This document shows, piece after piece, positions 3,828-34,020 of a stretch of 64,000 nt of DNA (positions within the stretch are counted from its first letter, which is position 1; each line of letters opens with the position of its first letter). The translations under genes were made by a program, and so were the position numbers. This DNA is from Chloroflexota bacterium (lineage in GTDB: Bacteria; Chloroflexota; Dehalococcoidia; Bin125). The stretch is from contig JAPPJZ010000034.1 of assembly GCA_028874365.1 (NCBI GenBank), forward strand, positions 1 to 64,000, given 5' to 3'. The notes under the pieces are model-generated. The model worked only from the letters and a program-made list of their open reading frames with translations. It made no database searches and had not been told where the DNA came from.

Positions 3828-4937
3828 TCAGGAGCGGATGCGCGCCGAAGGGGGCACGAATGTTGGCGGCGGAGCGGCTGGGTTGCCGTCGCCGAAGATG
3901 CCCTGGTAGATGCTGGTCCACTTGCCGGCGTGGCTGCCGGCGACGGTGATGGCGATGAAGGAGGGGTCGGCGACCTTGGACATTGGCGTGTCGAGGTCTT
4001 CCTCGGTGAGTCCGTGCTTCTCGGGCAGGTACTCGTTGATGCCGCCGCCCATGGTCGGCGAGGCAAGCCGATCGCGCAGGGGCAGGGCGGTGAACTCCAT
4101 GATCGCTTCGCGGAAGTTGTCCTTGGTCCAGCCGCTGGCGCGGTAGACGTCGGCGTGTTCGGGGCTGACCACGAACATCGAGGGTGTGACCTGGCCTCGA
4201 GGCTTGAGTACCTGTTGGAAGGCCATGGCGATCGAGCCGGTTAAGGAGCGGGCGTTGCGGCTGTATTGGTCGATGCAAACGCGCGGGCCGCCGGTGATGG
4301 GGATGAGCGAGACGACGCTGTCGTCGGGCTCGTAGCCGTATTCGACGTGAAACGGATCCCAGGGCGAGGTGTCTTCGTCCTCGGCGTAGCTGAGGGTCCA
4401 CTTGTGTCCGCCGCCCTGGATGGCTTGCTCGATCTCTCCGGGGACGGCGCCGCCGATGTTGCGCAGCATGAGTCGGAGGGCTCGGCCGAGGGTTGAGTTG
4501 GCTCGGTTGCCCTGGCCGAGGGCGTTGAGGCCCCAGTTCATGCCGATTTCCTCGCGGACTGGTCCGTTGACGAGCATCATTGGAGCCAAACCGGCGGTCG
4601 TGGCGATCGAGCCGTGGAGGGGGAAGCTTCCGCCGGCGGCGGCTTCGACCGAGGCGAGGACGGTGGGGAAGTACTCGGGCTTGCAGCCGGCCATGACGGC
4701 GTTGATGGCGGCCTTCTCGACGGTCATCGGGGCCATGTTCGGCGGCAGGGTTGCGACGGTTTTCTGTGGGTCGCTCCAATGCTCGGGCGAGCAGGCGAGC
4801 ATGCGGTCGACTCGTTCGCGCGTGGGTGGGACGACGGGCAGGCCGTCGGTGATGCCCTGGGCGAACATGAACTCGTAGACGTCGTCGTGGTCGGCGATTT
4901 CGATGATTCTTGAGTAGAAGTCGGTGTCGCCGGGCAC
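3828..4937 (-). CDS. Conserved protein of unknown function, TDGLPxVPPT family (paralogue 2)
   Basis: This 369-residue paralogue of the preceding gene has TDGLPVVPPT at residues 30-39 and is colinear with paralogue 1 over its whole length. It keeps the same Asn/Arg-rich blocks (NGPVREEIGMNWGLNALGQG, GNRAN, NIGGA) and the C-terminal VAGSHAGK. The chosen start is GTG 4937, with AAGG about 10 nt upstream. The gap to the selenoprotein gene carries a palindromic repeat that could attenuate or stabilise the message. Two adjacent full-length copies that differ at many positions suggest an old duplication with distinct roles or a heteromer. Function is unknown. Confidence 0.8.
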   Translation of the reverse strand: MPGDTDFYSRIIEIADHDDVYEFMFAQGITDGLPVVPPTRERVDRMLACSPEHWSDPQKTVATLPPNMAPMTVEKAAINAVMAGCKPEYFPTVLASVEAAAGGSFPLHGSIATTAGLAPMMLVNGPVREEIGMNWGLNALGQGNRANSTLGRALRLMLRNIGGAVPGEIEQAIQGGGHKWTLSYAEDEDTSPWDPFHVEYGYEPDDSVVSLIPITGGPRVCIDQYSRNARSLTGSIAMAFQQVLKPRGQVTPSMFVVSPEHADVYRASGWTKDNFREAIMEFTALPLRDRLASPTMGGGINEYLPEKHGLTEEDLDTPMSKVADPSFIAITVAGSHAGKWTSIYQGIFGDGNPAAPPPTFVPPSARIRS

Positions 4938-4961
4938 GGAGATGCCTTATCGGACGGACTT

Positions 4962-5015
4962 GAGGGGGGATGCCCCCCTCTGCCTTCGGCATCTCCCCCC
5001 GCTTCGCGGGGGGAG
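4962..5015. repeat. Intergenic palindromic repeat, family A, copy 1
   Basis: The unit is GCCCCCCTC, a small hairpin TGCC-TTC-GGCA, then a strong hairpin CTCCCCCCGC-TTC-GCGGGGGGAG. It lies in the 115-nt gap between the selenoprotein and paralogue 2, inside a presumed operon, so as RNA it would form a stable stem there. Other copies are at 7846, 26314 and 33975, all in the same orientation. Confidence 0.85.
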
Positions 5016-5052
5016 AAAGAGATTTCAGGGTTCGAGACGCTCGATAGCTTGG

Positions 5053-5583
5053 TTACTCCACTGGAGCCATCAAGGTGTCGAGGATTTCGTCGACGAAGCG
5101 CTCGGCGTGGTCGTGCATCTCGGCGTCGGTGCGGTCCTGCATCGGATGCGGGATGAAGACTCGGCGGACCTCTTCGAGTCCGAGGCGTTCGGCCTGGTGG
5201 CTGGCGGCCTTGATGAACTCAGATGTGGCGACGAAGACGCTGGGCTTGCCCTGCAGTTCGAAGAAGACGGTGTCGTGCACACTGCACGTCGTGCAGGATC
5301 CTCAATCAGCGAGCGCTTCGATGACGAAGTCGCACTCCTCCAGGATCGCATCTTTGATCGGTTGCGGGGCCGGCTTGGCGACGGTCGGCTTCATGAAGCG
5401 ACGGGTCTCGACGCCGGGCGCGCGCTCGTGCAGGAGTTGCTCGAGTCGGTCGAGGAAGACGTCGCCTCGCGGCTTGGAGATGTCGAGCAGGGCGATGGTC
5501 CCATGCAGCGCCTCGGGGCGCGGCGTGAGTTGTCGCTTGATCGGCACTCGTTCGTCGGTGGGGTCAAGGATCTGGGTAACCAT
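5053..5583 (-). CDS. UGSC-family selenoprotein (in-frame UGA = selenocysteine)
   Basis: A 176-residue protein results if the single in-frame TGA at 5302-5304 is read as Sec94. The TGA is followed directly by Gly-Ser-Cys-Thr-Thr-Cys-Ser, so the redox motif is U-G-S-C-T-T-C. This is the hallmark of the UGSC (seleno)protein family, known from marine metagenome selenoprotein surveys. The N-terminal half has the family-like KPRGDVFLDRLEQLL and KPT..KPAP segments. The C-terminal half resumes at once with VHDTVFFEL, SVFVATSEF and IPHPM before TAA. The ATG at 5583 is preceded by GGAGAGG. A 6-bp hairpin lies 3' of the TGA (5274-5288). The usual reading as two short genes, or as a nonsense pseudogene, would split the conserved motif. 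The reaction is unknown, presumably thiol/selenol redox. The sel genes are not in this window. Confidence 0.88.
5274..5288 (-). promoter_or_regulatory. Candidate bacterial SECIS hairpin
   Basis: On the minus strand the sequence CGTGCA-GTG-TGCACG forms a perfect 6-bp stem. Its 3-nt apical loop begins with G, 19 nt after the UGA. This fits the described bacterial SECIS pattern: an apical loop about 16-37 nt from UGA with a G among its first two loop bases. A competing stem, CTGCAC-GAC-GTGCAG, overlaps it at 5282-5296. Which one SelB would bind cannot be told by eye. Confidence 0.55.
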
Positions 5584-5683
5584 TGGACCTCTCCATCAAC
5601 GCGCCGTCTGCAGGGTTATGGCGCGCTGTGTGTCTCCTGTATGTCTTCTGGGCAGTCTACTCTTCCCGGACTTGTGATCCGCG

Positions 5684-7363
5684 TCAGGGTCGGCGGATGT
5701 TGGGCTCGAACGCGCCGAGATCTTTGCCGCCGGAGCGGCGCTTGTCCATGTCGGCGCCGCTCCTTCCTCGGATCTCGAGTGCGCCGCCGGGTCCGATCCT
5801 GGCGCTGGTCGGGGTGGAATAGACGCCCCCTGCCCAACCTCCGAGGATGGTCGAGAACTTGGCGGCGGAGGAACCGGCGACGACGAGGATGATGTTCGAC
5901 TTGTCCTGGAACTTGGGCACGGGAAGGTCGAGCGCCTGCTCGCCGCCGAAACGTTCTACGACCGACGGCGGCAGGCCGGCGCCGGCCTGATCCGAGCGCA
6001 AGCGGTCCTTCAACGGGATCGCGGTTTCCTCCATGATGCACTCGCGGACGTCGTCCTTGGACCAACCGGAGCGGCCGAAGATGCCGGCGTGATCGGGCGA
6101 GAGGACGACCAGGGTGTCGACCATCGGTGATTTGGGGTCTTGCATGCAACTCATCGAGGCGGCCAAGGTTCCGGCCATGCCGCGGCCGTCGCGCGAGCGT
6201 TCGTCGGCGATCGTGGCGGGTCCGCCGGACATCGCCATGAGCGTGGCAACATCATCGGTGGGCTCGAAGCCGTACTCGACGGCGAGTGAGTCCCAGGGAC
6301 TGGCGTCCTCGTTCTCGGCGAAGTTCATGGTGAGCCGATGGGGTCCGCCCTGGGTGGCTCGGTCGGTGCCGCCGGGGACGCTGCCGCCGACGTTGCGGGC
6401 GCAGAGTCGTAGCGCTCGTCCGATGGCCGCGTTGGCACGGTTGCCGGAGCCGAGCGCGCCGTGCAGGTAGTTCATGCCGATTCGGTCGCGGATGGGCCCG
6501 TTGAAGATGCCGACCGGCGTGGCGCCCATGGTCGTGGCCAGGACGCCGTGGATGTTGAAGCTCTCGGTGCAGGCGGTCTCAACCAAGGCGATGATCGCAG
6601 GCATGTATTCCGGTTTTGCGCCGGCCATGACCGCGTTGATTGCGACCTTCTCGACCGTGATCGGGGCGAGGTTGGGGGGAACGATGGCCACTTCGTCCTG
6701 GGGATCGCGGGTCGTGCCCTGGAGCATTTTCCAGACGCGTTCGCGCGTCGGAGGCACGACCGGGAAGCCGTCGGTGTAGCCCTGGTCGTACATGAACTCG
6801 TGGATGTCGTCGCTGGAGGCGAGATCGACGAGGCGGGAGAGCAGATCGCCGCTCTTGAGCGCCTGCAGGCGCTCGTAGACGCCGGGCTCGTAGTTGCGTG
6901 CGCCGCAGCCGGGCCGCTGCTCCGGCAGCGACTCCCAATCGATTGATGTCTCTGAACCCGGACGGCCGGCGAGGGTCATCGACTCGCTGGCGATCTCGCG
7001 CCATTCGTGCTTGTCGAAGCCGAAGGTTTGCAGGGTGCAGTTCTGCTCTTCGTCGTAGAGGAACAGGGTCGGCACCGTGTCGATGTCGGTCTCGTAGGAC
7101 AGGTCGAGGGCGTCGTCGTCGAGCAGCGGCATCGTCAGATCGTGCCGGTCCTTGAGGACGGGAATGTCGTCGCGCTTCTGCACGGCGACCCAGACATCCA
7201 GTCCGTCATCGGTGTCTCGATGCACGGCCTCGAGTAAGGGGAGGGTCAGATTGCAGGTGTCACAGTCCTCTTTGACCAGTGCGAGCAGGACCGGCCCCTC
7301 GGGCGGGAACTGCATTTCCTGGCCGTCGGCGTCGAGCAGGGAGAATTTGGTAGGTGGGTGCAT
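5684..7363 (-). CDS. Thioredoxin-like domain fused to TDGLPxVPPT-family domain
   Basis: The protein has 559 residues in two parts. Residues 1-130 form a thioredoxin-like fold with a C34-D-T-C37 redox pair after a hydrophobic strand, and the cis-proline motif T-V-P98-T. From about residue 175 to the end it is colinear with the two shorter paralogues (TDGFPVVPPT at 197-206, NGPIRDRIGMN, GNANA-like block GNRANAAIGRALRL, C-terminal VAGSSAAK). The fusion ties the unknown domain to disulfide or selenol redox chemistry, matching the UGSC selenoprotein 100 nt downstream. No Shine-Dalgarno is evident; a TAAACT box ends 6 nt before the ATG, suggesting a leaderless transcript that starts the operon. Confidence 0.82.
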   Translation of the reverse strand: MHPPTKFSLLDADGQEMQFPPEGPVLLALVKEDCDTCNLTLPLLEAVHRDTDDGLDVWVAVQKRDDIPVLKDRHDLTMPLLDDDALDLSYETDIDTVPTLFLYDEEQNCTLQTFGFDKHEWREIASESMTLAGRPGSETSIDWESLPEQRPGCGARNYEPGVYERLQALKSGDLLSRLVDLASSDDIHEFMYDQGYTDGFPVVPPTRERVWKMLQGTTRDPQDEVAIVPPNLAPITVEKVAINAVMAGAKPEYMPAIIALVETACTESFNIHGVLATTMGATPVGIFNGPIRDRIGMNYLHGALGSGNRANAAIGRALRLCARNVGGSVPGGTDRATQGGPHRLTMNFAENEDASPWDSLAVEYGFEPTDDVATLMAMSGGPATIADERSRDGRGMAGTLAASMSCMQDPKSPMVDTLVVLSPDHAGIFGRSGWSKDDVRECIMEETAIPLKDRLRSDQAGAGLPPSVVERFGGEQALDLPVPKFQDKSNIILVVAGSSAAKFSTILGGWAGGVYSTPTSARIGPGGALEIRGRSGADMDKRRSGGKDLGAFEPNIRRP

Positions 7364-26313: not shown

Positions 26314-26362
26314 TGCCCCCCTCTGCCTTCGGCATCTCCCCCCGCGGAGCGGGGGGAGAGGG
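26314..26362. repeat. Intergenic palindromic repeat, family A, copy 3
   Basis: GCCCCCCTC-TGCCTTCGGCA-TCTCCCCCCGC is followed by loop GGA and GCGGGGGGAG. It lies in the 289-nt spacer between the 5' end of the malic enzyme gene and the 3' end of the zinc-ribbon gene (both minus strand). The rest of that spacer shows no open frame with coding character. Confidence 0.85.
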
Positions 26363-33974: not shown

Positions 33975-34020
33975 TGCCCCCCTCTGCCTTCGGCATCTCC
34001 CCCCGCTTCGCGGGGGGAGA
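33975..34020. repeat. Intergenic palindromic repeat, family A, copy 4
   Basis: TGCCCCCCTC-TGCCTTCGGCA-TCTCCCCCCGC-TTC-GCGGGGGGAG is almost identical to copy 1. It lies in the 260-nt spacer between the convergent ends of the small plus-strand gene and the YceI gene. The spacer holds no further coding signal. Confidence 0.85.

Follow-up and report, generated by a model that had tools for sequence, protein, structure and literature searches.

The UGSC locus

Selenoproteins of the UGSC family are among the most abundant in aquatic metagenomes, and the window analysed here (the whole stretch of 64,000 nucleotides) carries on its minus strand a gene predicted to encode a further member, together with neighbouring genes of the same orientation (Table 1). 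The genome is a bin of the Dehalococcoidia (Chloroflexota) comprising 3.12 Mb in 82 contigs, 96.1% complete with 2.3% contamination. The reading frame of the UGSC gene begins with an ATG at 5583-5581 and runs through 93 codons to a TGA at 5304-5302, beyond which a further 82 codons lead to a TAA at 5055-5053. The TGA is directly followed by GGA TCC TGC ACG ACG TGC (Gly-Ser-Cys-Thr-Thr-Cys), and when it is translated as selenocysteine (Sec, U) the product reads MVTQILDPTDERVP...EALAD-U-GSCTTCSVHDTVFF...LMAPVE. A first-pass annotation, made from the letters of the DNA, had described two segments of 93 and 82 codons joined by a single TGA, with a Shine-Dalgarno start and a TAA end; this layout proved exact, the ribosome-binding motif being GGAGAGG, and only the minus strand had to be supplied. 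Plus-strand open reading frames (ORFs) that overlie the interval (e.g. 4924-5892) are antisense frames in high-GC DNA.

Table 1. Features of the UGSC locus and further UGSC genes of the same genome.
Feature	Coordinates	Strand	Description and basis
UGSC selenoprotein gene (predicted)	5053..5583	minus	176 aa, Sec at residue 94; translation with TGA=U, Pfam and NCBIfam profiles
Sec codon TGA (predicted), codon 94	5302..5304	minus	TGA in 80/80 relatives, Cys in 8/9 plasmid relatives
Shine-Dalgarno-like GGAGAGG	5588..5594	minus	Sequence; 4 nt 5' of the ATG
Putative bSECIS hairpin CGUGCA-GUG-UGCACG with outer G-C pair	5272..5290	minus	Conserved pairs, frozen codons
Upstream neighbour, 559 aa	5684..7363	minus	N-terminal thioredoxin-fold domain with CxxC (DCDTC), C-terminal N domain
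Downstream neighbour, N domain protein, 369 aa	3828..4937	minus	Kinship to other N proteins
Second N domain protein, 363 aa	2730..3821	minus	63% identical to 3828-4937, 6 nt away
Further UGSC genes of the genome (G000)	C43:14975 (L052), C80:178138 (L054), C67:39156 (L055)		Each with one TGA, each adjoining an N domain

Two other elements lie beside these genes. A methyltransferase gene (PF05175) and an MFS transporter gene (PF07690) occupy 719-2733 of the minus strand, 3' of the N genes and with overlapping ends, and are perhaps in one operon with UGSC. The 23-base near-palindrome CTCCCCCCGCTTCGCGGGGGGAG occurs in three copies (4993-5015, 26336-26358 and 33997-34019), where none is expected by chance in the window; it is an intergenic repeat family, one copy of which (4993-5015) lies in the gap that separates UGSC from the N gene following it.

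UGA-94 as a selenocysteine codon

The joined product is covered almost entirely by the Pfam family UGSC (PF24696; residues 4-172 of 176, E 9.3e-44, 150 bits against a cut-off of 25) and over residues 29-171 by the NCBIfam family UGSC_fam (NF041046; E 5.4e-45, 153 bits against a cut-off of 125). The family-like sequence reported earlier on both sides of the TGA is thus borne out by a single profile match that spans it, and the proposed identity as a UGSC selenoprotein is upheld by scores above both cut-offs and by the alignment of U-G-S-C with the Cys of Cys-type homologues. As had also been foreseen, a standard gene caller truncates the gene, closing the frame at 5302 (ORF 5302-5583, 93 aa), which is what would be expected if the TGA were a true stop or a sequencing error and the two segments separate ORFs or a pseudogene. 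The comparison with relatives makes that reading extremely improbable. Codon 94 is TGA in each of 80 relatives fetched from genome_contigs with peptide seeds that excluded the Sec codon, a sample biased to close relatives; these come from independent assemblies, and both flanks are highly conserved. Relatives with 94-99% identity at the UGSC protein belong to bins labelled Dehalococcoidia or Chloroflexi. Among the first 135 loci, which represent several phyla, 117 UGSC matches extend across the Sec position and every one has TGA there, so that its presence is not due to chance. Nearly all UGSC-family matches in 400 Chloroflexota genomes likewise contain exactly one TGA.

Homologues with Cys at the Sec position continue straight across it. 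The plasmid collection holds nine UGSC-family members, eight of which align across the TGA and have Cys (CGSC) exactly at that position, the comparison that the first-pass annotation had proposed as a check. The ninth, on plasmid p2-T1 of Acidovorax sp. T1 (NZ_CP021650.1; L172), has a TGA, and its deposited CDS of 96 aa ends there; in this case the UGSC-N gene pair is carried by an IncP conjugative plasmid. Two UGSC-like proteins, with Thr at the Sec place (G178:C21) or with Cys in a degenerate motif (G312:C10), are divergent paralogues lacking the TGA.

A frame that stays open across a TGA could also reflect reassignment of UGA to another amino acid, such as Trp, throughout the organism. This is equally improbable: the TGA occurs at one codon only and is kept across Chloroflexota, Actinomycetota, Acidobacteriota, Proteobacteria and others, the residue that replaces it is Cys and not Trp, a SECIS-like hairpin lies 3' of it, and the genome encodes a tRNA-Sec with anticodon TCA. 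Separate ORFs, a pseudogene and UGA reassignment were accordingly rejected on the combined evidence of the relatives, the Cys homologues and the sel genes described below. We put the probability that UGA-94 is read as Sec, and that the gene at 5583-5053 encodes a UGSC-family selenoprotein, at about 97%.

With this gene an established selenoprotein family gains a further member, one that no feature sets apart from the others. In the GOS selenoproteome, the "UGSC-containing protein" is counted with Sec in 255 cases and with Cys in 21 (PMC2398784), and the family described there shares with the present gene a full-length match, the Sec-Gly-Ser-Cys motif and fusion to an unknown domain. This genome differs in holding four copies of the gene, each with exactly one TGA; in one paralogue (L055) GGC replaces GSC after the Sec.

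Selenocysteine machinery of the genome

The first-pass annotation had reasoned that the organism must possess SelA/B/C/D and had suggested searching the rest of the genome for them. All were found above their cut-offs, with the reservation that the genome is a bin and that they lie on other contigs of it: tRNA-Sec on contig C2 (70.2 bits, above cut-off; 98 nt with anticodon TCA according to ARAGORN), selA on C63 (529.9 bits, cut-off 267.9), selB on C80 (342.5 bits together, in frame; cut-off 242.25) and selD on C18 (352.1 bits, cut-off 125). As a control of the selA profile, its cut-off was exceeded in only one of 14 well-known genomes. The presence of this machinery further argues against UGA-94 being a stop codon. 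The selD gene carries an in-frame TGA of its own (context CGG-U-GSKFGPEGL), and a PrdB/GrdB-like gene at C78:47442-47834 (L157), whose frame is crossed by a TGA within FLTPV-U-PFCTRSV, is probably another selenoprotein gene of this genome.

A SECIS-like hairpin downstream of the UGA

The putative bSECIS hairpin lies within UGAGGAUCCUGCACGACGUGCAGUGUGCACGAC, and its loop starts 19 nt past the UGA. The bSECIS model describes a 3-9 nt loop with G in the first two positions, located 16-37 nt from the UGA, on a stem of 4-16 bp with an energy of -7.5 kcal/mol or lower (PMC13188914). The geometry of the UGSC hairpin falls within these ranges (loop GUG, 19 nt, 6-bp stem with one additional outer pair), and the energy of its core, -7.0 kcal/mol, is slightly short of the value of the model. 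When 37 nt are folded freely, an alternative hairpin is preferred (-10.4 kcal/mol), and the folding energy downstream of the UGA in the single sequence is no better than that of shuffles (z about 0). Single-sequence folding is uninformative here because the two hairpins compete, and the comparative codon evidence was therefore decisive.

Across 76 non-redundant relatives, the five inner pairs are formed in every sequence, the loop-closing A-U pair in 72, and the next-but-one outer pair in 71 (G-C in 59, A-U in 10); some of the pairs covary. One inner pair appears as G-C in 69 relatives, G-U in six and A-U in one, and the paralogue L054 has CGUGGA-GUG-UCCACG, an exchange of C-G for G-C inside the stem. 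The codons that form the hairpin are frozen at synonymous sites, which is a further point against a stop codon: Ser-101 is AGT in 76/76 relatives, compared with 21 of 518 other serines of the same proteins (4%), Val-102 is GTG in 72/72, compared with 420/1053 elsewhere, and Cys-100 is TGC in 80/80. This conservation suggests that SelB, together with Sec-tRNA, would read UGA-94 as Sec under the direction of the downstream stem-loop.

Remote homology to GrdB and PrdB

GrdB and PrdB-like genes for comparison were taken from Chloroflexota, where many of them contain a TGA, with Sec regions of the form ILTAT-U-GTCTRCG or FLTPV-U-PFCTRSV. In hhalign, the C-terminal half of UGSC aligned with the C-terminal region of GrdB with a probability of 96.7 and a single-comparison P of 4e-10, with the Sec residues in register, over a stretch of only about 86 residues at 28% identity. 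Masking the columns of Sec and both Cys left a P of 1.3e-6, compared with 0.012 for the best of 20 column shuffles and 0.034 for the reversed profile. Both families are often Sec proteins, and within the aligned region the pattern Sec-x-x-Cys-x-x-Cys falls at equivalent positions in the two. The Pfam profile GRDB (PF07355) gave no match to the 43 members of the UGSC alignment even at E 10. Judged by these profile comparisons, UGSC and GrdB/PrdB are remotely homologous and, because the PF07355 profile is not reached, UGSC stands outside that family; unlike GrdB it has only 176 aa and lacks the N-terminal half. We found no description of this relation in the literature searched, parts of which were available as partial text.

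Predicted fold

An AlphaFold model of UGSC, built on the 43 aligned members (pLDDT 94.1), forms a single alpha/beta domain in which beta-alpha units alternate, and Sec-94 is placed between the third strand (86-92) and the helix 95-110, at the N-terminus of the helix. The best Foldseek match of the model was a flavodoxin (5lji, E 5.5e-6), and VIA matched it to receiver domains and lumazine synthases with Z about 9-10. The predicted topology is common to UGSC and proteins of the flavodoxin-like fold, with identities under 20%; as this fold is widespread, no function can be deduced from it. When the profile of UGSC was run against PDB sequences, it returned only weak partial matches to hydroxyacyl-CoA dehydrogenases (best E 0.025).

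UGSC has been grouped with thioredoxin-like proteins in papers from 2008 (PMC2398784) and 2026, and two features agree with a thioredoxin fold: the UxxC motif sits at a helix N-terminus, as in thioredoxins, and thioredoxin genes lie nearby. We nevertheless regard this assignment as unlikely, since the model shows the beta-alpha alternation and the similarity to flavodoxins, receiver domains and lumazine synthases described above, thioredoxins are absent from the sequence and fold matches listed (an absence that falls short of proof), and the profile homology is to GrdB, with Sec in register. On the model, itself a prediction, the fold looks flavodoxin-like rather than thioredoxin-like.

The N domain and thioredoxin partners

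The neighbours of UGSC contain a domain of about 350 aa, here termed N, for which Pfam and NCBIfam hold no family. The N-terminal part of the upstream neighbour (5684-7363) matches ResA-type thiol-disulfide oxidoreductases in profile searches (E 3.4e-7), and its C-terminal part is 50% identical to other N proteins. An N domain is encoded on the strand of UGSC within about 6 kb in 69 of the 80 relatives, beside all four UGSC copies of the genome and in all nine plasmid relatives, and the two are fused in several proteins (L137, L141 and L171). A thioredoxin domain is found near UGSC in 66/80 loci, and the gene order in Arthrobacter sp. ERGS1:01 is trxB-trxA-N-UGSC. N probably corresponds to "Unknown_1", which the GOS paper describes as a fusion partner (PMC2398784).

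The AlphaFold model of N reached a pLDDT of 90.6; no convincing match emerged from fold searches with it, Foldseek giving E 4e-3 at best and VIA a Z of no more than 6.8, and a PDB sequence search with N gave no match. Whereas the neighbour of GrdB is its pyruvoyl partner GrdE, that of UGSC is the N domain, and profile comparison detected no relation of N to four GrdE-like neighbours (P 0.22), to UGSC or to GrdB.

Proposed function of the UGSC-N-thioredoxin set

As the most likely function, we tentatively propose that UGSC may supply the redox subunit of a reductive enzyme of the Grd/Prd type that is fed by thioredoxin, an assignment that we hold at less than even odds. In such an enzyme, the selenolate of Sec-94 would attack or receive the substrate, a Se-S link would then form between Sec-94 and Cys-97, and this link would be reduced by thioredoxin, at this locus by the thioredoxin domain that forms part of the neighbouring N protein (5684-7363), while the N domain would act as the substrate-binding partner.

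The Cys form of UGSC on plasmids adjoins CoA transferases, tricarboxylate/TRAP/TAXI binding proteins, phosphosulfolactate synthase and PEP-mutase-type enzymes, and the UGSC enzyme may therefore reductively cleave a small organic acid. On four haloarchaeal plasmids (L168, L170, L174 and L175), Cys-type UGSC and N lie near genes for CoA transferase, CoA ester lyase, phosphosulfolactate synthase and TAXI/TRAP transporters, neighbours that hint at the catabolism of a small acid.

For the annotation of this locus, one 176-aa selenoprotein replaces a truncated ORF of 93 aa. For the organism, the result is a Dehalococcoidia genome equipped with the complete Sec pathway and with six or more predicted selenoprotein genes (four UGSC, SelD and one PrdB-like). 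The UGSC-N-thioredoxin set and the link to GrdB provide a lead that extends beyond the single gene: UGSC and N, with a fused or neighbouring thioredoxin, could possibly constitute a widespread reductive enzyme that depends on Sec and is distantly related to glycine and proline reductase. With the kinship to GrdB indicated by profile comparison, an apparently non-thioredoxin fold and a fixed partner domain, the question of the function of the UGSC family becomes concrete and testable.
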